The notes beneath the pieces are model-generated. The model had not been told where the DNA came from and ran no database searches. It saw nothing but the letters and a program-made list of their open reading frames with translations. From assembly GCF_900066015.1 (NCBI RefSeq), contig NZ_LN890655.1, positions 1,466,726 through 1,530,725 of the forward strand: DNA of 64,000 bases, written 5' to 3'. This stretch comes from Candidatus Promineifilum breve. Its GTDB lineage: Bacteria; Chloroflexota; Anaerolineae; Promineifilales; Promineifilaceae. Every line of letters begins with the position of its first letter. Position 1 is the first letter of the stretch. Shown here piece by piece: positions 31,119 through 42,302 of this stretch. The position numbers were made by a program, and so were the translations under genes.

Positions 31119-33137
31119 ATGAACGGTATCGCGCTGCAATTTACCCCCTTCCTCGTACCTGTCATCGGCACGGCCATCGGGCTAACCTTGCTATTGTTCT
31201 ACGCCTGGCGGCGCGGCCGTTCCACGCCGGGGACGTGGGCCTTCCTGGCCCTCGTCAGCCTCACCGGCTGGTGGTGCTACACCTACGCCCTGGAGCTGAT
31301 GACGACCGACCCGGAGACGATGCTGCTGTGGGTCAAGCTACAATGGATCAGCATCCCCCTGATCCCGGTCGTCTGGCTGTTTTTCGCGCTGTTCTATGCC
31401 GGCTACGGCCACCGGGTCAATCTGCGCTTCGTCGCGGCGTTGCTGGTGGTGCCGTTCATTATGATCCTGCTGGCCTGGACAACGCCGGCCCACGATTGGC
31501 TCTACGTCAATCCCGGGGTCAGCGACGTGGGCCGCATTGTTGTCTTCGATGCCGAATATGGCCCGGCCTTTATCGTCCATACCGCCTACTCCTACATCCT
31601 GTTTATCATCGCCACGGCGCTCATCGTGCGCGTCTGGCGTCGGTCGGGCGACACCCAGCGGCAACTGGCCCTCACCGTCACCGCCGGGGCGATCTTGCCC
31701 TTCATCGGCAACGCCATTTACCTCATCGCCCCGCTCCTGGGCGTGGAAGTCCACATCGACCTGACCGTGCTGGCCCTGGCGTTCAGCGCCGTCTGCTTTG
31801 CCTGGGGCTGGTTCCGCTTGCGCCTGTTCACCGTGTTCCCCGAATTCACCGAGCCTGTCAGCGCGGGGCGCATCGATCCGGCCATGGCGGCGCAGAACAC
31901 CCAGACGCGCAGCCTCAATCTGGTGTCACTCGGTCTGGCGCTGTTCTACTTCGTGGCCCTGATGCCCATTCTCACTATTTTGTTGCGCGGCGATCCGGCG
32001 GTGCGGCCATTGGCCGTTATCTACGTGGGGCTGTACCTGATGTTGCTGGGAATCACCATCTGGCGCGGCGGGAGCTATTCCGTCCGCGCGGTAGGGCTGA
32101 CGGGCGTCTATCTGGGGCTGGCGCTGCTTGATTTGCGCGTCAGCGGGTTGTTTCCGACGGTGGGTTTTTTCCTGGCGGCCTACACCGCGTTTGCCGCCGT
32201 GCTGCTCCCGGTGCGGTTGATGTGGGCCGTGTTTGCCGCCGGTTTGCTGGGCGTGGCCCTGGTGCCTCCGGCCATGAATCCGGCCATCCAGCGCGACATC
32301 TATTCGCTGGCCTATCTGCTGTTGACGGTCGCCATGACGGCCGGGATGCTGATCGTCGCCCTGGTGGCGACGCGGCGCGACAACCGTACGCTGCTCAACG
32401 TCTCGCGCAATCTGGCGCGCGCCCTGGAGAGCGAGCGGACGCAACTGGAAGCGCGCGTCGTCGAACGCACGCGCGCGCTGGAGACGAGCGCCGCCGTCAG
32501 CCGCCAACTTTCGACCATCCTGGATCAATCGCGGCTGGTGCGCGAAGTGGTGGAGCAATTGCACGTCGCCTTTGCCTATTACCACGTCCACGTCTACCTA
32601 TGGGATGAGGCCGCCGGGGCGCTGCGCATGGTGGGCGGCACGGGGCAGGCCGGGCAGGCGATGCTGGTCATGGGCCATAGCCTGCGGCCCAATATCGGGC
32701 TGGTCGGCCGCGCCTATTCCACCAACGCCCCGGTCGTCGTTCCCGACGTGAACGCCGACCCCGGCTGGATGCCCAATCGCCTGCTGCCGGGCACGCGCGC
32801 CGAGATCGCCGTGCCCATCACCTATGGCGACGAAGTGCTGGGCGTTCTCGACGCCCAGGATACGGAAGTGGGCGGCCTCGGCCCGGCCGATTCGCAACTG
32901 TTGCAGACCATTGCCGGGCAGTTGGCCGTGGCCCTGCGCAACGCCCGCCTCGTGGCCCAGGTGCAGCGCGAGGCCGAGCAGGCGGCCCTGATCAACGCCA
33001 TCAACCGCAAGATCGCCCAGACCAACGACATCGACGGCGCTTTGCGGGTGGCCGAGGCCGAACTGTCGCGCGCGCTGGAGGTTCAGGAAACAGCCATCCG
33101 GCTAGACCTGGGCGGGGAGAACGGCCATGAGCGCTGA
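31119..33137 (+). CDS. Membrane/GAF sensor without a kinase domain
   Basis: 672 residues. A first block of seven helices (about 8-225) resembles the 7TM domain found on bacterial histidine kinases. A second block of helices runs at about 265-430. A coiled coil (ARALESERTQLEARVVERTRALE) is followed by a GAF domain (about 470-625). The protein stops shortly after the start of what looks like another helix-GAF unit (RKIAQTNDIDGALRVAEAELSRAL), with no HisKA or ATPase. The next gene overlaps by 11 bases and supplies GAF and kinase domains. The two probably act as one complex or derive from a single split gene. Confidence 0.8.
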   Translation: MNGIALQFTPFLVPVIGTAIGLTLLLFYAWRRGRSTPGTWAFLALVSLTGWWCYTYALELMTTDPETMLLWVKLQWISIPLIPVVWLFFALFYAGYGHRVNLRFVAALLVVPFIMILLAWTTPAHDWLYVNPGVSDVGRIVVFDAEYGPAFIVHTAYSYILFIIATALIVRVWRRSGDTQRQLALTVTAGAILPFIGNAIYLIAPLLGVEVHIDLTVLALAFSAVCFAWGWFRLRLFTVFPEFTEPVSAGRIDPAMAAQNTQTRSLNLVSLGLALFYFVALMPILTILLRGDPAVRPLAVIYVGLYLMLLGITIWRGGSYSVRAVGLTGVYLGLALLDLRVSGLFPTVGFFLAAYTAFAAVLLPVRLMWAVFAAGLLGVALVPPAMNPAIQRDIYSLAYLLLTVAMTAGMLIVALVATRRDNRTLLNVSRNLARALESERTQLEARVVERTRALETSAAVSRQLSTILDQSRLVREVVEQLHVAFAYYHVHVYLWDEAAGALRMVGGTGQAGQAMLVMGHSLRPNIGLVGRAYSTNAPVVVPDVNADPGWMPNRLLPGTRAEIAVPITYGDEVLGVLDAQDTEVGGLGPADSQLLQTIAGQLAVALRNARLVAQVQREAEQAALINAINRKIAQTNDIDGALRVAEAELSRALEVQETAIRLDLGGENGHER

Positions 33138-36100
33138 GCTTGCCCCGCGCCGCCCGCTCGGCGCAAGCGAGGATGACGCCCGGCGACTGCTGGGCGCTGT
33201 GGCCGTCATCGTGGCCGCCGGCGCGGCCGTTTGGCCGGCGATCTATCTATTGAGCGCCGGCAACGGGCAGCCCTGGCCCGCGGCCCCGCTATTATTTCTG
33301 GCCGCCGGGGTTGGCGGTCTGTTGCTGTCGCGCGCCGGGCGCTTCGCCGCCGGTGGGCGGCTACTGGTAGGTCTTCTGGCGGCGGGCGTCATTGTCCTGA
33401 TCGTTCAGCCGCTGCTGGGGGCCGGCTTCAGCGCGCCCGGCGTGTTGTCGGCCGTCGCCTGGTTGGGCGTGCTGGCCGTGGCATCCACCCTGGTGCTCGG
33501 TTGGCGCGGCGCGGCCGGGGTGGCGGTGGGCGGTCTGGCCGTTTTGGCCGCGGCCATGCTGGTTGGCGAGTGGGATACGCGGCCCAACTCCCTGGCCGCG
33601 ATCCTCACCGTGGCCGTCAATGTCGCCGTTTTGGCCCTGGTGCTCTACCAGAGGCTACGGGCCGCCGCGCCGCAGGCGACTTCGCCCACTTCCGGGCCGG
33701 AACTGGCCCAGAAACAGGCCGAGCTACAGGAACAAGTGACGGAGCGCACCGCCGCGCTGGCCGCCGCCGCCACCGTGGGCAATCAGATTAGCCGGATGCA
33801 AGACCTGGATTCGCTGCTCAGAGACGCAGCCGAGTTAATCCGCGATCGCTTCCGGCTGGTTCACGTCCAGGTCTACCTGCTCAGTCCGGGCACGCAGGAG
33901 TTGATCCTGCGCGCGGCGACGGGCGAGGCGGGCGCGGAGCTGCTGCGCCACAATCATCGCCTGGCCGTCGGCCCCGGCTCGGTCAACGGCACGGCCGCCG
34001 CCGCGCTGGAGGCCGTCACCGTGCGCTACGACCGCGATCATGCCGCCTTGCCGGCCCATTCATTATTGACGGAAACGCAGTCGGAAATCGCCCTGCCGCT
34101 CATCTTCGAGGACGAGGTGATCGGCACGCTCGACCTGCAAAGCCGCGATCCCGACGGGCTGGGGCTGGAGAACCTGACCGCCTTTTCCGTGTTGGCCGAT
34201 CAACTGGCGACGGCGGTGGAGAACGCGCGTCTGTTCACCGAGGTGACCGAGGCCCGCGAACAGTTGGCCCGCCAGGCCGAAGCCCTGACCCGCGACGGCT
34301 GGCGGCGGTTCATGGCCGAACGCGCGGCCGAGGATAGCCGGCCCAATGCCGACAGCGCCCCGGCCCAAGCGAACGACGGCCCGACCCCGCGCCTCCGCCA
34401 ATCCATCGGCGTGCGGGGCACAACCATCGGCTACGTGGAGATGGCCCAACCGGCGGCCGAGTCGCCACGGGCCAGGGAGCTGGTTTCGGCCGTGGCCGGA
34501 CAGTTAGGGGCGCACCTGGAGAATTTACGCCTGACGCAACAGGCCGAGACGGCCCGCGACGAAGCCCGCCGCCGCGAGTTGGAACTGGTCTTGCTCAATC
34601 GGGTCGTTTCGGCCATTGCCGCCTCATCCGACCTACACAGCAGCCTGCAACTCATCGTCGATCAATTGGCGATGGCGACCGGCATCCAGCAGGTGGGCGT
34701 CGCCATTCTGAACGAGGAGCACACCGGGCTGGAGGTCGTGGCCGACCGCTCCGGCAGCCTCAACACGGAGAGCGCCGTCGGCTTTGTCATCCCCCTCGAA
34801 AATAATCCGGCGACGCAGATGGCGATTGCCGAGCGGCGGCCGGTCGTCGTCCACCACGCCACCGAGAACCCGCTGACCGCCTCGGCCCACGAAGTGCTGC
34901 GCCAGCGCGGCGTGAAGACGATCCTCATCCTGCCCCTGGTCGTGGAGAATGAGGTCATCGGCACCATCGGCCTGGACGTTGTGGAAGAGGGCATCGAGAT
35001 GACGGCCGATCAATTGCGTCTGGCCGAGACCATTGTCTACCAGGCGGCGTCGGCCATCCAGCGGGCGCGCTTGTTCAATCAGGTGCGCGCCCGCTCCCGC
35101 CAGTTGGAGAGCCTGTCGCGCATGGAGGCCGATCTGTCGCTGGCAACGACCGAGGACGAAATCCTGATGGCGCTGGCCGGCGGGCCGCCGTGGGGCCGGC
35201 CACCGGCACTGGCGTTGACCTACCTGTCGCCGGGGGCCGACGACGTGCTGCGGGCCGAACCGGCGGGCCTGGTGCACGGCGGCGCGGTGCAGGCCGTGGC
35301 CAAGGCCACGCCTCGACCTGTGGCGTCCATTCCCCTCAGTCCATTGTGGATCGAAAAGCGGCGCGAGATGCTGATCATCGAAGACGCGGCGACCGATCCG
35401 CGCCTGGACGAGGCCACGCGCGCCCGGCTGGCCGACGCGGGGCAGGCGGCGGTGGTGGCGCTACCCTTGCGGCGCGGCGGCCAATGGCAGGGGCTGCTGA
35501 CGCTGAGTTGGCCCCAACCGTATCAATTGACCTCCGACGAGGCCTTTATCCTGCAACGCCTGCACGAACCGCTGGCGGCCACCGTCGCCAGCCGGCGCGC
35601 CTATCTGGCCCAGCGCGCCGCCCTGGCCCAGACCGAGGCGGCGCTGGCTGCCCAGGCGCGGCTATCGCGCGAGCTACGGGCCGTGTCCGACGTCGGCGTG
35701 GCGGCGGCGGCCACCCTCGACGTGGATCGTTTGCTGTCGGCGGCGGTCGATCTGACCAAAGAGAACTTCAACCTCTATCACGCCCACATTTACCTGCTGG
35801 ACGAGGACAAAACGACCCTGGCGCTACGGGCCGGGGCGGGGGCCATCGGCCGCCAAATGGTGCGCGAGGGGCGCACGATCCCCATGTATGCCCAATCCAT
35901 CGTGGCCCGCGCCGCCCGCGAGCGCGACGTGGTGGTCGTCAGCGAAACGGGGCGCTCGACCGACTTTCTGCCCCACCCCCTACTGCCCGACACCCGCTCG
36001 GAGTTGGCCGTGCCGCTGGTCATCGGCGACCGCTTGCTGGGTGTGCTCGACGTGCAATCGTCCCAGGCCGGCCGCTTCCAGGCCACCGACCGGCAGGTGT

Positions 36101-36891
36101 ACCGGATTCTGGCCGCCCAGTTGGCCGTGGCGACGCAAAACGCCATGTATTTCGGCGAACAGTTGCAGATGGCCGAAAAGCTGCGCGAGGTAGACCGGCT
36201 GAAGACCGACTTCCTGGCCCGCATGAGCCACGAGCTACGCACGCCGCTCAATTCGATCATCGGCTTCGCCGACGTGCTGCTGATGGGGCTGGAGGGCGAT
36301 CTGAACGAGCGCATGATCGAGGACCTGCAACTCATCCGCGGCAGCGGCTTTCATCTGCGCGACATCATCGGCGACATCCTGGATATGTCGCGCATCGAGG
36401 CCGGGCGGCTGGAACTGACCTATGAGACGTTCGACTTGCGCCGCACGGCGACCGAGATGATGGCGACGGCCGCGCCGTTGGCCGAGCAAAAGGGGCTGGC
36501 GCTGCGGCTGGACATCGATAGTCGCATCGGTCTGGTATCGGCCGACCGCACCCGGCTGCGGCAGGTGCTATGGAATATCGTCGGCAATGCCATCAAGTTC
36601 ACCGACCACGGCGGCATTACCGTTTCCATCCGGCCCGAGAATGACGACGTGCTGGTCTGCATCAGCGATACCGGCATCGGCATTGCCGACGATAACCTGC
36701 CGCGTATCTTTGACCATTTCAGCCAGGTGGAAGGGACGCAACGGCAATCGATCGGCGGCACGGGGCTGGGGCTGTCGATCAGCAAGAGCCTGGTCGAATT
36801 GCACGGCGGCCGCCTGTGGGTCGAAAGCCGGCTGGGCGAGGGCAGCACCTTCCGCTTCACCATTCCCGGCGGCTTGCGCGATGACAAGTGA
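33127..36891 (+). CDS. Large multi-GAF hybrid-type sensor histidine kinase
   Basis: 1254 residues. Six or so helices (about 18-170) are followed by a coiled coil. GAF modules lie at about 215-370, 495-655 and 860-1010, with degenerate GAF-like segments at about 420-475 and 690-835. Phosphoacceptor box MSHELRTPLNS with His1035. The HATPase_c domain has NIVGNAIKF (N box), ISDTGIGIA (G1), IFDHFSQVEG (F box) and GGTGLGLSIS (G2). No receiver domain is attached, but a single-domain receiver gene follows 82 bases later. The start overlaps the preceding sensor gene by 11 bases, so translation is coupled. Confidence 0.93.
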   Translation: MSAELAPRRPLGASEDDARRLLGAVAVIVAAGAAVWPAIYLLSAGNGQPWPAAPLLFLAAGVGGLLLSRAGRFAAGGRLLVGLLAAGVIVLIVQPLLGAGFSAPGVLSAVAWLGVLAVASTLVLGWRGAAGVAVGGLAVLAAAMLVGEWDTRPNSLAAILTVAVNVAVLALVLYQRLRAAAPQATSPTSGPELAQKQAELQEQVTERTAALAAAATVGNQISRMQDLDSLLRDAAELIRDRFRLVHVQVYLLSPGTQELILRAATGEAGAELLRHNHRLAVGPGSVNGTAAAALEAVTVRYDRDHAALPAHSLLTETQSEIALPLIFEDEVIGTLDLQSRDPDGLGLENLTAFSVLADQLATAVENARLFTEVTEAREQLARQAEALTRDGWRRFMAERAAEDSRPNADSAPAQANDGPTPRLRQSIGVRGTTIGYVEMAQPAAESPRARELVSAVAGQLGAHLENLRLTQQAETARDEARRRELELVLLNRVVSAIAASSDLHSSLQLIVDQLAMATGIQQVGVAILNEEHTGLEVVADRSGSLNTESAVGFVIPLENNPATQMAIAERRPVVVHHATENPLTASAHEVLRQRGVKTILILPLVVENEVIGTIGLDVVEEGIEMTADQLRLAETIVYQAASAIQRARLFNQVRARSRQLESLSRMEADLSLATTEDEILMALAGGPPWGRPPALALTYLSPGADDVLRAEPAGLVHGGAVQAVAKATPRPVASIPLSPLWIEKRREMLIIEDAATDPRLDEATRARLADAGQAAVVALPLRRGGQWQGLLTLSWPQPYQLTSDEAFILQRLHEPLAATVASRRAYLAQRAALAQTEAALAAQARLSRELRAVSDVGVAAAATLDVDRLLSAAVDLTKENFNLYHAHIYLLDEDKTTLALRAGAGAIGRQMVREGRTIPMYAQSIVARAARERDVVVVSETGRSTDFLPHPLLPDTRSELAVPLVIGDRLLGVLDVQSSQAGRFQATDRQVYRILAAQLAVATQNAMYFGEQLQMAEKLREVDRLKTDFLARMSHELRTPLNSIIGFADVLLMGLEGDLNERMIEDLQLIRGSGFHLRDIIGDILDMSRIEAGRLELTYETFDLRRTATEMMATAAPLAEQKGLALRLDIDSRIGLVSADRTRLRQVLWNIVGNAIKFTDHGGITVSIRPENDDVLVCISDTGIGIADDNLPRIFDHFSQVEGTQRQSIGGTGLGLSISKSLVELHGGRLWVESRLGEGSTFRFTIPGGLRDDK

Positions 36892-36973: not shown

Positions 36974-37342
36974 ATGGGCCGTAAACGAATATTGTGTATC
37001 GAAGACAACGATAGTAATCTCCGCCTCGTATCGCGTATTGTGGAGGGCGAGAAGCACGAGTTCCTGATGGCCGTCGATGGCCTGACGGCGCTGGCGTTGG
37101 CCCAGCGTGAACATCCCGACCTCATCTTGCTGGACATCAACATCCCCGGCCTGAGTGGGCTGGAACTGGCGCGGCGTATCAAGGATGATCCGGCGCTGTC
37201 GTCCATCCCGGTCATCGCCACCACGGCCAACGTCTTGCGCGGCGACCGCGAGCGCTGCCTGGAAGCCGGCTGCGACGAATATTTGGCCAAGCCCCTGGAT
37301 GTGCGTGAATTGCAGACCATGTTGCGCGCCTATTTGACCTAA
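36974..37342 (+). CDS. Single-domain response regulator (CheY/DivK-like)
   Basis: 122 residues, receiver domain only. Acidic pocket ED near residues 10-11 (ILCIEDND), phospho-Asp in LLLDINIPG (about 57), the switch Thr in VIATTAN and Lys in YLAKPLD. With no output domain it would pass phosphate or change a partner's activity, as DivK does. AAGGAG sits before the ATG. The most likely phosphodonor is the kinase encoded just upstream. Confidence 0.95.
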   Translation: MGRKRILCIEDNDSNLRLVSRIVEGEKHEFLMAVDGLTALALAQREHPDLILLDINIPGLSGLELARRIKDDPALSSIPVIATTANVLRGDRERCLEAGCDEYLAKPLDVRELQTMLRAYLT

Positions 37343-37452: not shown

Positions 37453-38505
37453 ATGCGCGTCGCGGTGCTGGCGAATTTGCAGAAGAACGCGCCCACCTGG
37501 CCGGGTATGCCGGAAGATCGGTGGGACGATCTGGATACCGAAGAGACAATCGAGGCTCTGGTGGCGGCTCTGGAGGCGGGCGGCCATGAGGCGACCTTCG
37601 TGGAGGGCAATCTCACCCTGTGTGAGACATTGCCCAAGCTGAAACCCGACATTTGCTTCAACATCTGCGAGGGGCATTGGGGCGACTCGCGCGAGGCCCA
37701 GGTGCCGGCCATTCTAGAGATGCTGCGCATCCCCTACACCGGCTCCGGCCCCCTGACGCTGGCCCTGGCCCTCGATAAGCCCATGACCAAGCGCGTGCTG
37801 TGGTATCACAACCTGCCCACGCCGGTCTTCCAGTCGTTCGAGCGGGCCAACGAACCGCTCGACCCCGATATGACGTTCCCGCTGTTCGTGAAGCCCAGCC
37901 GCGAGGGCACGGGCATGGGCGTGACCGCCGAGTCCATCGTCTACGATGAGGCCCAATTGCGCGACCAGTTGCGCCGCCAGTTCAAGACCTACCAGCAATC
38001 GATTCTGGTGGAGCACTTCATCGAGGGGCGCGAGATCACCGTCGGGCTGGTGGGCAATCTGACCGGCCCGGTGGCCCGCCGCGTGCCCGACGACCACGAC
38101 GCGCCGCGCATCTCGCGCGGGCTGCACTTCTTCCCGCCGCTGGAGGTGGACATGAGCCGCTATCCCGAGGAAGAAGCGGGCGTCTACACCAGCCGGATCA
38201 AGACCGAAATGGCCCACACGTTCCACTATTTGTGCCCGGCCCCCCTGCCAGATGAACTGGCCCATGAACTGAACTGGCTGGCCGCGGCCACTTTCCGCGT
38301 CACCGGCTCTTTCGACGTGGGGCGGATCGACTTCCGGCTGGACTCCCACGACAACAACAAGCCCTACATTCTGGAGATTAACCCGCTGCCGGGTCTGAAC
38401 CCCGGTTACTCCGACCTGCCCCTGGAGGCGCAGGCCGACGGCTGGACGTTTGAACAGTTGGTCAACCGTATTCTGGAGGAAGCGGTTCATCGCTACGAAC
38501 TATAA
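37453..38505 (+). CDS. ATP-grasp ligase of the D-Ala-D-Ala ligase family
   Basis: 350 residues from the ATG at 37453, which has AGGGAAGGGAAC just upstream. The frame opens earlier at 37351, but that part has no conserved sequence. The middle domain has FPLFVKPSREGTGMGV (ATP-binding Lys and Gly loop) and ILVEHFIEGREITVG. The C-terminal metal-binding end is EINPLPGLNPGYSDLP, close to the Ddl EVNTLPG signature. The N-terminal segment has NICEGHWGDSREAQ where Ddl has HGxxGEDG, so the amino-acid substrate probably differs from D-alanine. A LysW-like carrier gene lies 71 bases downstream, suggesting a ligase that loads a carrier protein. That is an inference. Confidence 0.85.
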   Translation: MRVAVLANLQKNAPTWPGMPEDRWDDLDTEETIEALVAALEAGGHEATFVEGNLTLCETLPKLKPDICFNICEGHWGDSREAQVPAILEMLRIPYTGSGPLTLALALDKPMTKRVLWYHNLPTPVFQSFERANEPLDPDMTFPLFVKPSREGTGMGVTAESIVYDEAQLRDQLRRQFKTYQQSILVEHFIEGREITVGLVGNLTGPVARRVPDDHDAPRISRGLHFFPPLEVDMSRYPEEEAGVYTSRIKTEMAHTFHYLCPAPLPDELAHELNWLAAATFRVTGSFDVGRIDFRLDSHDNNKPYILEINPLPGLNPGYSDLPLEAQADGWTFEQLVNRILEEAVHRYEL

Positions 38506-38507
38506 GA

Positions 38508-38555
38508 TACGAAATACGAGTTCGGAGCGCTTAAACGCCTACCTCGTATTTCGTA
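38508..38555. repeat. Perfect 13-bp inverted repeat
   Basis: TACGAAATACGAG at 38508-38520 pairs with CTCGTATTTCGTA at 38543-38555. Each arm holds two 7-base TACGAAA/TACGAG units. It overlaps the last base of the ATP-grasp stop region and lies before the LysW-like gene. It may terminate or stabilise the upstream message. Confidence 0.88.
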
Positions 38556-38576
38556 GCTAAATCAGGAGAGAAATCG

Positions 38577-38855
38577 ATGCTCGACAAAGACCCAGCCCTC
38601 ATGGCCCGTTGCCTTGAATGCGATTCGCGCATCTATTTCGAGCGGAAACCGGACGTGGGGGAGATCATCGTCTGCCCCGAATGTGAGACCAGCCTGGAAG
38701 TGGTGTGGTCGTCGCCGATCCGCTTCGGCTGGCCCGACGACGAGGGCGAACGCGGCAGCGGCGGCCCGGTTAACCTGGACGAATATTTCCGCGACCTCGA
38801 CAACGAAGAAACCGAAACCGAGTACGGTGACGACGAAGAGGACGAGCGGTATTGA
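38577..38855 (+). CDS. LysW-like zinc-ribbon amino-group carrier protein homologue
   Basis: 92 residues with an AGGAG ribosome site. Residues 9-50 match the LysW zinc ribbon: Cys12, Cys15, Cys33 and Cys36 in RCLECD...GEIIVCPECETSLEVV. LysW proteins carry the growing amino acid on a C-terminal glutamate in lysine or arginine biosynthesis and normally end EDWGE at about 54 residues. This one has a longer, very acidic tail ending EEDERY, so the usual attachment residue is not at the end. The neighbour is a Ddl-type ATP-grasp enzyme rather than a RimK-type LysX. It may be a carrier of a different pathway or a zinc-ribbon protein that no longer carries substrate. Confidence 0.8.
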   Translation: MLDKDPALMARCLECDSRIYFERKPDVGEIIVCPECETSLEVVWSSPIRFGWPDDEGERGSGGPVNLDEYFRDLDNEETETEYGDDEEDERY

Positions 38856-40192: not shown

Positions 40193-41035
40193 TCATTCCG
40201 CGGAAATGACATTCTGATCATTTCTCAAGTCGTCCAGAAAGGAAGTCTGCACAACTTCCCAGCCATCTTCCAGATAAGGTGAGGGATGCAACAGGAAGGT
40301 CGACGTGACCTTGTGCTCTGATTGATCATTCTCCGATGTCCACTTGATGATCGCTTCGGTCCGTGCCTCGCTCCCCTTTACTTGAACTGCCAGCATCTCC
40401 ACCGAATAAGCCTTGATAGGCGGTAGCACCGACCAGATTTCCACTATTGCCCGGTGAAACTCGGCTTCGGTGATGGGGATGCCGACCGGGTTGTAGAACT
40501 GCATGGGGATTGAGCCGGGATGGACAAAGTAATTATCGCGGCGAAGGACTCCCATAACGAACTGCTCTGTCCACATCTCGGCATTGTATTCCGGGCTGGC
40601 AAAGGTGAAACACATCCTCGCCCCCGGAATATTGATGTCGTCTATTTCTTCATCGAGTAGTTCCCCTGTCAGATAGCGATAGACGTCAATGACCTGAGCC
40701 TCGCCCAAGAAGTCGACGAAGATGCCATTAGCTTCCATCAGGTCTAGCAAGCTATCGATGGCTTGCTGAAGTTCTTCAACAGGAATTTCTTCTATCGGTA
40801 AAATCGGGGGATCGCCGATCCGTTCGCGCACCAAAATGCTTTTTGCGTTCTCAAATTGGCGCTCAAATTCAAGGACGTAATCCAGAAAATCGCTCTCTAT
40901 CTCAAGTGGTAAGTTGTCCGAGCGATAATCGGCGATCATGCCAAATTCGTCGCGTAGTACCTCTCGCTTGGATTCGTTCAGCGATTCCAGAATCCGGCGC
41001 TGCATTTCGTTAAACCACTCATCACTGGGTCGCAT
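40193..41035 (-). CDS. Unrecognised soluble protein, acidic
   Basis: 280 residues from the ATG at 41035, which has GGAGGG 6 bases upstream. An in-frame earlier ATG at 41092 has no site. I do not recognise the family. The N-terminal half is helical and acidic (ESLNESKREVLRDEF, LEFERQFENAKSIL, PVEELQQAIDSLLDLMEAN). The second half looks alpha/beta with a QFVMGVLRRDNYFVHPGSIP segment. No signal peptide or membrane helix. Base composition is less GC-rich than the neighbours, so it may be acquired. It is divergent from the first DUF488 gene. Confidence 0.7.
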   Translation of the reverse strand: MRPSDEWFNEMQRRILESLNESKREVLRDEFGMIADYRSDNLPLEIESDFLDYVLEFERQFENAKSILVRERIGDPPILPIEEIPVEELQQAIDSLLDLMEANGIFVDFLGEAQVIDVYRYLTGELLDEEIDDINIPGARMCFTFASPEYNAEMWTEQFVMGVLRRDNYFVHPGSIPMQFYNPVGIPITEAEFHRAIVEIWSVLPPIKAYSVEMLAVQVKGSEARTEAIIKWTSENDQSEHKVTSTFLLHPSPYLEDGWEVVQTSFLDDLRNDQNVISAE

Positions 41036-41091
41036 TTTGATTACCCTCCAACAGCGCACTTCAGTCCATAATAGCAGAACTATTTGGTTCA

Positions 41092-41125
41092 AGAAACCGA
41101 GTATTTCGGAAAAAACTCGGTTTCT
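41092..41125. repeat. Perfect 11-bp inverted repeat, AGAAACCGAGT family
   Basis: AGAAACCGAGT (41092-41102) pairs with ACTCGGTTTCT (41115-41125). A second copy lies at 53003-53037. Here it sits just upstream of the TATAAT of the first DUF488 gene, in a divergent spacer. Confidence 0.85.
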
Positions 41126-41129
41126 ACGC

Positions 41130-41135
41130 TATAAT
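41130..41135 (+). promoter_or_regulatory. TATAAT box placed for a leaderless start
   Basis: A perfect TATAAT ends seven bases before the GTG at 41142, and no ribosome site lies between. No good -35 hexamer is seen at 16-18 bases. The 11-bp hairpin occupies that position. Confidence 0.5.
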
Positions 41136-41141
41136 CCCCTC

Positions 41142-41768
41142 GTGTCCTCTCCTCCCCTCTACACCATCGGCTACGGTGCCCGCGACATCGACGCCTTCAT
41201 CGCCGCGCTGCGCCTCTATGGCGTTGCCTACCTGCTCGACGTGCGCTCCCGCCCCTATTCGCGCTATAAGCCCGACTTCAGCCGCGAGCGGCTGGAGGAG
41301 CACCTTCGCCAGGCGGGCATCCGCTACGTCTACATGGGCGAGGCGCTGGGCGGGCTGCCGGCCGACCGCAGTTGCTACGATGCCGAGGGCAAAGTAGACT
41401 ATGCGAAGGTGATCGAGCGGGATTTCTACCGGGCCGGTATCGAGCGGCTGGTCAGCGCCCAGGCGCAGGGGCTGGCCGTGGCGGTCATGTGCAGCGAGGG
41501 CAAGCCGGAGATGTGCCACCGCAGCAAGCTCATCGGCAAGACGCTGGCCGCCCGCGGCCTGCCCGTGGCCCACATCGACGAGAATGACGCCCTGATCGGC
41601 CAGGACGAAGTGCTGCTGCGCCTCACCGGCGGCCAGCCTTCCCTCTTCGGCGACGAGATGCTGCCCGGCGGCTCGCGCAAACGGTATGCGATTCGGGGGG
41701 ACGACAACGATGAATCGACAGAAGAGGAAGAATCCTCAGATTACACAGATTTCACAGATGATAGATAA
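41142..41768 (+). CDS. DUF488 family protein, copy 1
   Basis: 208 residues from a GTG. It opens LYTIGYGARDIDAFIAALR and has the family core LLDVRSRPYSRYKPDFS, then VAVMCSEGKPEMCHRSKLI with the conserved Cys...Cys-His-Arg. DUF488 proteins are small cytosolic proteins of unsettled function. The last 15 or so residues (EEEESSDYTDFTDDR) are encoded by the left arm of a CACAGATT repeat (41721-41759), so the native C-terminus has been altered or extended. It is followed 48 bases later by a second DUF488 gene. Confidence 0.88.
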   Translation: MSSPPLYTIGYGARDIDAFIAALRLYGVAYLLDVRSRPYSRYKPDFSRERLEEHLRQAGIRYVYMGEALGGLPADRSCYDAEGKVDYAKVIERDFYRAGIERLVSAQAQGLAVAVMCSEGKPEMCHRSKLIGKTLAARGLPVAHIDENDALIGQDEVLLRLTGGQPSLFGDEMLPGGSRKRYAIRGDDNDESTEEEESSDYTDFTDDR

Positions 41769-41805
41769 ATCTGTGAAATCTGTGTAATCTGTGGATTCTC
41801 TTCTC
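41721..41805. repeat. CACAGATT inverted repeat overlapping a DUF488 3' end
   Basis: The left arm (41721-41759, GAAGAGGAAGAATCC then 9-base CAGATTTCA-type units) pairs with the right arm (41769-41805). The stop codon of the DUF488 gene lies in the loop. The right arm ends just before the ribosome site of the second DUF488 gene. Confidence 0.9.
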
Positions 41806-41816
41806 CGGAGGCTTTG

Positions 41817-42302
41817 ATGATCGTCACGATTGGAGCCATCGGCTACACGGCCGAATCGTTCTTCCAGGCGCTACAGAATGCCAACGTCGATACGTTCATC
41901 GATGTGCGCCGGCGGCGGGCGGTGCGCGGGCGGGAGTACGCCTTCGCCAACAGCCAACGGTTGCAGGCGCGGCTGGCCGAACTGGGCATTCGCTACGTCC
42001 ATCGCCTCGACCTGGCCCCACCGCCCGCCGCCCGCGAGCAACAGGCCGCGGCCGACCAGGCCGCCGGCATCGCCCGCCGCCAGCGGACAACGCTCGGCCC
42101 GGCCTTCATCGCCGCCTACGAGCGCGACATGCTGGCCCACCTCGACCCGGCGGCGCTGCGGGCCGACTTGCCGCCCGACGCGGCGGTGATCGCCCTGATG
42201 TGCGTGGAGCGCGCCCCGGCGGCCTGCCATCGCTCGCTCCTGGCCGACCGTTTGAGCGCAGCGTGGGGTGAGGAAGTGCGACATTTAAAATCCGAAGAAT
42301 AA
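41817..42302 (+). CDS. DUF488 family protein, copy 2
   Basis: 161 residues from the ATG at 41817, with CGGAGG upstream. It has a shorter core than copy 1: TIGAIGYTAESFFQAL, then TFIDVRRRRAVRGRE, and near the C-terminus ALMCVERAPAACHRSLLADRL with the Cys...Cys-His-Arg set. It is clearly diverged from copy 1. The first 16 bases of the gene (ATGATCGTCACGATTG) are identical to those of the RecQ gene downstream, although the proteins then differ. Confidence 0.88.
   Translation: MIVTIGAIGYTAESFFQALQNANVDTFIDVRRRRAVRGREYAFANSQRLQARLAELGIRYVHRLDLAPPPAAREQQAAADQAAGIARRQRTTLGPAFIAAYERDMLAHLDPAALRADLPPDAAVIALMCVERAPAACHRSLLADRLSAAWGEEVRHLKSEE

Follow-up and report, generated by a model that had tools for sequence, protein, structure and literature searches.

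Conserved pairing of a Ddl-type ATP-grasp ligase with an acidic-tailed LysW-like zinc ribbon in Promineifilum and its linkage to lysine 2,3-aminomutase across Chloroflexota

To our knowledge, LysW-type carriers work with RimK-type ligases and carry a terminal Glu. In the described systems, EDWGE is recognised by LysX or ArgX, ATP-grasp enzymes with the motif GSWGR, and the substrate is attached to the terminal Glu at its gamma-carboxyl; a haloarchaeal E54A strain is an arginine auxotroph (PMC10433800). Known partners of these carrier proteins (AmCP) dock via positive charge (PMC9303977). Canonical loci in related Chloroflexota keep EDWGE as well as GSWGR, the latter in 4/4 LysX sequences.

The gene pair described here was found in Candidatus Promineifilum breve, in a window (i.e., the whole stretch of DNA that was analysed) of 64,000 nucleotides. 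The following features were used:

33127..36891, + strand: sensor histidine kinase upstream of the pair (ORF; retained at this place in most Promineifilum genomes according to neighbourhood maps)
36974..37342, + strand: single-domain response regulator directly upstream of the ligase (PF00072, 88 bits)
37453..38505, + strand: ATP-grasp ligase with D-Ala-D-Ala ligase fold (350 aa, P0001; Pfam/NCBIfam, AlphaFold)
37660..37686, + strand: NICEGHWGD motif of the ligase, residues 70-78, in place of Ddl HGxxGED (family alignments, profile alignment to DdlB)
38507..38556, + strand: palindromic hairpin insert between the ligase and ribbon genes (fold -22.8 kcal/mol, z -3.4)
38564..38570, + strand: AGGAGAG ribosome-binding site of the ribbon gene (read directly; AGGAGA kept in 8/8 congeneric gaps)
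38577..38855, + strand: zinc ribbon of the Cys4 type resembling LysW, extended by a long acidic tail (P0002, 92 aa; PF21344, PDB match, model)
38727..38852, + strand: acidic tail of the ribbon, residues 51-92 (predicted disordered, contains LDEYF, ends DERY)

Both reading frames of the pair were recovered where the first-pass annotation had placed them, with the ligase frame running from an ATG at 37453 to a stop ending at 38505 on the same strand as the ribbon frame (ORF list and translation). A response-regulator gene also precedes LysW-like or KamA genes in several other families (neighbourhood maps). Further downstream in the window, two adjoining DUF488 genes (40938-42302) directly precede a 992-aa ORF whose translation resembles a RecQ-type helicase.

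The ribbon protein scored over the cut-off of PF21344 (Zn_ribbon_LysW; 36.2 bits, cut-off 27) and carries Cys12, 15, 33, and 36 together with LEVV. Its nearest solved sequence is T. thermophilus LysW (3wwl, E-value 7.6e-6), LysW was also the best fold match of the modelled protein (5eio_C, probability 1.00), and the LysW equivalog TIGR01206 was failed with 22 bits against a cut-off of 53. The tail of ~42 residues is strongly acidic, lacks EDWGE and a terminal Glu, and was modelled at low confidence, in line with disorder. Its segment LDEYF corresponds to LDEFF and similar segments in congeners, whose ribbons end in RD, AY, EG, RY, GY, or ER where the window protein ends in DERY. Among the ligase-linked members examined, no tail ended in EDWGE or in a conserved residue, the last residues varying by species. 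The earlier description of a LysW-like ribbon with a non-standard tail was thereby borne out. Having the Cys4 globular domain but neither EDWGE with its terminal Glu nor a GSWGR-bearing partner, the protein falls outside the LysW carrier family on the features compared, although it may still work like a carrier.

The ligase matched Pfam Dala_Dala_lig_C with 100 bits (cut-off 24) and stayed under every Ddl cut-off of NCBIfam (178 against 243 bits and 140 against 246 bits for the respective models). Its AlphaFold model (pLDDT 90.3) had P. aeruginosa DdlB as best PDB match (8evy, TM 0.74), and GSWGR of LysX was absent from the sequence in a motif check; the enzyme is accordingly of the Ddl type rather than the RimK/LysX type, as had been proposed. 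NICEGHWGD, which had been singled out as a changed N-terminal motif, was found to replace HGxxGED, and E73, R80, and E81 were invariant across the family alignments. Profile alignment showed that the ATP/Mg residues of Ddl (K109, K147, D293, E308, N310) and the acceptor-carboxylate residues (K250, R291, S320) are retained, and that His63 is replaced by the invariant E73, Leu282 by the invariant D321, and Tyr216 by a variable residue after K250. We take His63, Tyr216, and Leu282 (E. coli DdlB numbering) to be substrate-site residues of Ddl, and the other residue roles are likewise assumed. The ligase is therefore read as a probably active enzyme with altered amino substrates, which, judging from the residue changes, are possibly cationic. 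A flexible insert (about residues 202-225; alignment, AlphaFold model) is located beside the active-site lid of Ddl; this long region was weighed as a possible contact site for the ribbon and discarded, since orthologues that have no ribbon nearby share it. Ribbon-neighbouring ligases are strongly acidic (median net charge -19), and docking by simple electrostatics was rejected on these grounds.

Within the genus, the ligase gene is followed by the adjacent ribbon gene in 8/8 Promineifilum genomes. The gap between both genes, stop codon included, spans 29-31 nt with a Shine-Dalgarno-like AGGAGA in 6/8 of these genomes, and a palindromic element of about 45 nt, found in the window genome and in the congener G304 and missing from the other six, has entered the gap in these two. 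Median dN/dS over species pairs was 0.065 for the ligase, 0.10 for the ribbon, and 0.30 for the tail, i.e., both proteins are maintained under purifying selection and the tail changes fastest. The presence of the pair in all congeners together with low dN/dS therefore excludes a chance ORF pair.

The host genome (5.03 Mb, 99.96% complete, genus Promineifilum) has a separate Ddl homologue at C1:999323. Profile searches of the whole genome yielded no second LysW-type ribbon over the cut-off, and the only RimK-family enzyme over the cut-off was closest to RimK, not LysX (scores 115.6 against 275.6 in the comparison with LysX); there is therefore no canonical LysW system. The noted lack of a LysXYZ set was confirmed, and a canonical EDWGE LysW operon, named in the first-pass annotation as evidence that would count against its proposal, was not found by the whole-genome profile search. 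The relatives G362 and G364 carry such an operon as a clearly separate locus, and in G364 KamA and the ligase additionally neighbour a LysW-like gene with an acidic tail.

The surroundings of the closest ligase homologue (4 kb, same strand) were surveyed in 84 genomes, i.e., most ligase-bearing genomes of two draws, so that selection is modest; the families are not fully independent. A LysW-like gene was present in 21/84 genomes from 8 families, compared with a chance expectation of ~0.1 genome (our own estimate, based on about two LysW-like genes in a genome of 5 Mb), and was not near the ligase orthologue in the other 63. Rare co-occurrence, which had been put forward as an argument against the pairing, was thus found neither here nor in Promineifilum. 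KamA was present within the same distance in 44/84 genomes from 32 families. Nine genomes from seven families showed the order LysW-like - KamA - ligase, often with another Ddl-like ligase and a GNAT gene behind it; the order recurs on the MAG contigs L212, L214, L218, and L229, of which L212 and L229 appear identical to contigs of two of the nine genomes. On L145, LysW, KamA, two ligases, and GNAT form one operon; other layouts were LysW-ligase (L138, L157), LysW-GreA-ligase-LysW (L137, L139), and, in Dehalococcoides-sized genomes and many others, a ribbon-less KamA-ligase-ligase-GNAT set. Sets of KamA, GNAT, and two or three Ddl-like ligases in tandem (L057-L064, L045-L046) are widespread in Chloroflexota, with a Memo-like gene after the set in L045/L046; no curated family naming such a set was found among the family libraries searched. 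Relatives of the ligase (43-45%) also occur in Bacillota (Fermentithermobacillaceae) MAGs (L233, L237).

In three families (f90, f100, f107), the slot ahead of KamA is occupied by an unrelated rubrerythrin-type rubredoxin-like Cys4 protein (PF21349, over the cut-off in 3/4 slot sequences), whose tails are acidic and Trp-containing (L151, L152, L154, L160). This looks like a swap of acidic-tailed ribbons and speaks for a function of the tail or of the small acidic ribbon itself; the slot in the gene cluster may matter more than LysW ancestry. Acidic-tailed LysW-like paralogues occur nearly throughout the family, including members without the ligase, and a phylogenetic profile based on whether LysW-like genes are present or absent is for this reason of no use. 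Such ligase-less genes, sometimes in tandem pairs (L165, L168, L271, L272, L277, L281, L284, L285, L287), neighbour response regulators, a GreA/GreB-like gene, or acyl-CoA carboxylase-like genes, so the role of the ribbon may be broader or regulatory.

The identity of KamA was assessed with curated models: KamA of the operons (550 bits) and KamA of the window genome (541 bits) exceeded the lysine 2,3-aminomutase equivalog cut-off of 525, and neither reached the cut-offs for Glu and Arg aminomutases. In the window genome, KamA is unlinked, being located at C1:2919561, 1.4 Mb from the ligase; ligase orthologues adjoining KamA in other families are 55-74% identical to the window ligase. Over 118 genomes, 66 had both KamA and the ligase, 5 the ligase only, 8 KamA only, and 39 neither (Fisher p 8e-18, phylogeny ignored), and within the family, where both are mostly unlinked, the corresponding numbers were 28, 3, 5, and 16 (p 1e-6, phylogeny likewise ignored). 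The ribbon goes with the ligase and not with KamA, because LysW was found beside the ligase without KamA in 12 genomes and beside lone KamA loci in 0/13; KamA as an obligatory partner of the ribbon was ruled out by these lone loci. In three further loci (L299, L300, L304), KamA lies among genes for CoA-transferase subunits and a class III aminotransferase, a set that resembles the lysine beta-degradation genes of Bacillus. No paper in the library searched combined lysine 2,3-aminomutase with ATP-grasp, and the cluster was not found described there in work on LysW/AmCP and ATP-grasp, on lysine aminomutase and Ddl or ATP-grasp, or on Chloroflexi and aminomutase.

The preferred reading, to which we assign a probability of roughly 0.5, is that of a Ddl-type amide ligase of a beta-lysine-centred Chloroflexota pathway with a dedicated acidic-tailed ribbon partner; this is a joint figure that includes the ligase and ribbon genes being one functional unit. 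It builds on the observed pairing, conservation, fold, and KamA linkage, from which we infer the reaction, the substrate, and the role of the ribbon. KamA would make beta-lysine, and the ligase would use ATP to activate a carboxylate and couple it to an amino substrate, which is probably lysine or beta-lysine. Many relatives have one or two additional Ddl-like ligases and GNAT, which could then extend or acetylate the product. The ribbon would have no catalytic role but serve this ligase specifically, as carrier, tether, or scaffold, by offering its acidic tail; as the LysW-type terminal Glu is absent, covalent loading, if any, would have to take place on an internal Asp/Glu or on the non-conserved C-terminus. 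The first-pass annotation had suggested a carrier-based pathway other than lysine and arginine synthesis. A distinct pathway stands, tied to lysine 2,3-aminomutase and placed by us at beta-lysine as the probable substrate, whereas a covalent carrier is so far unsupported, given the missing attachment Glu and unconserved C-termini of the ligase-linked members examined and the paralogues without ligase.

A covalent amino-group carrier, on whose tail side chain or C-terminus the ligase would put an amino acid (e.g., lysine or beta-lysine) so that later enzymes act on the tethered substrate, is considered somewhat unlikely. The LysW fold suggests it, as do the shared operon with an ATP-grasp gene, the flexible ligase insert beside the active-site lid and the acidic tail of the PF21349 stand-in, by which an acidic-tailed ribbon seems to be wanted in that slot. 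Ddl active sites, however, are small and closed, and the ligase lacks the GSWGR that is kept in the four canonical-locus LysX compared. Nor do the tails offer EDWGE or a conserved end residue, where Glu54 is essential in known ArgW (PMC10433800), and the very acidic ligase is unlike the basic docking of LysW partners (PMC9303977).

Also rather doubtful is a free dipeptide or beta-lysine derivative (compatible solute or protected catabolic intermediate), with the ribbon regulating or stabilising the enzyme or being a co-transcribed regulator. The many ribbon-less KamA-ligase-ligase-GNAT orthologues, the resemblance of the KamA/CoA-transferase/aminotransferase loci to lysine beta-degradation, and the acidic ribbons beside response regulators and GreA-like proteins are consistent with such a product, but ribbon-ligase adjacency recurs in 8 families, and the ribbon stays beside the ligase in Promineifilum although KamA is located elsewhere.

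A beta-amino-acid pathway in which Ddl-type ligases load lysine or beta-lysine on internal acidic residues of a ribosomally made, LysW-fold acidic-tailed protein is judged unlikely; it would be a carrier or storage system apart from the EDWGE carriers, and an unrelated rubredoxin-like protein could stand in for the LysW-like one. A role of the Cys4 protein as rubredoxin-like electron donor to the radical-SAM enzyme KamA, suggested by the rubredoxin-like proteins occupying the slot in three families, is very improbable, as the LysW-like protein remains beside the ligase where KamA is unlinked, is absent from the 13 lone KamA loci, and has a ribbon that is a zinc site in solved relatives. A second D-Ala-D-Ala ligase with an incidental neighbour is hardly credible despite the Ddl fold and the TM of 0.74 to DdlB, given the separate Ddl homologue, the scores under all Ddl cut-offs, the changed equivalents of H63, Y216, and L282, and the KamA linkage.

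The module is real, conserved, and unnamed. That a LysW-fold protein recurs together with a Ddl-type ligase and with lysine 2,3-aminomutase points either to another way of doing carrier chemistry or to a beta-lysine metabolism that is undescribed and widespread in Chloroflexota, among them filaments common in activated sludge. The pair is small and easily tested in a laboratory host.

Compared with known systems, the pair shares the Cys4 ribbon fold, the acidic tail, and the adjoining ATP-grasp gene with LysW/ArgW and LysX/ArgX, but the ribbon has 92 aa instead of about 54 and no EDWGE or terminal Glu, the partner is of the Ddl type without GSWGR, and LysZ/Y/J/K are missing. With Ddl, the ligase shares the fold, the ATP/Mg residues, and the acceptor-carboxylate residues; it differs in having NxxEGxxGDxRE for HGxxGED, the loss of Tyr216, an invariant Asp for Leu282, a longer lid region, and a different gene neighbourhood. 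Carrier-peptide (PEARL) pathways are related in concept, with a small carrier protein as the platform for small-molecule chemistry, whereas the system described here has no tRNA-dependent ligase and its covalent attachment is hypothetical. The supply of beta-lysine by lysine 2,3-aminomutase, and GNAT in many clusters, is shared with AblA/AblB (N-epsilon-acetyl-beta-lysine) and EpmA/EpmB; no EpmA-type ligase was seen in the Chloroflexota KamA clusters, which instead add one to three Ddl-like ligases and, in some cases, a LysW-like ribbon.
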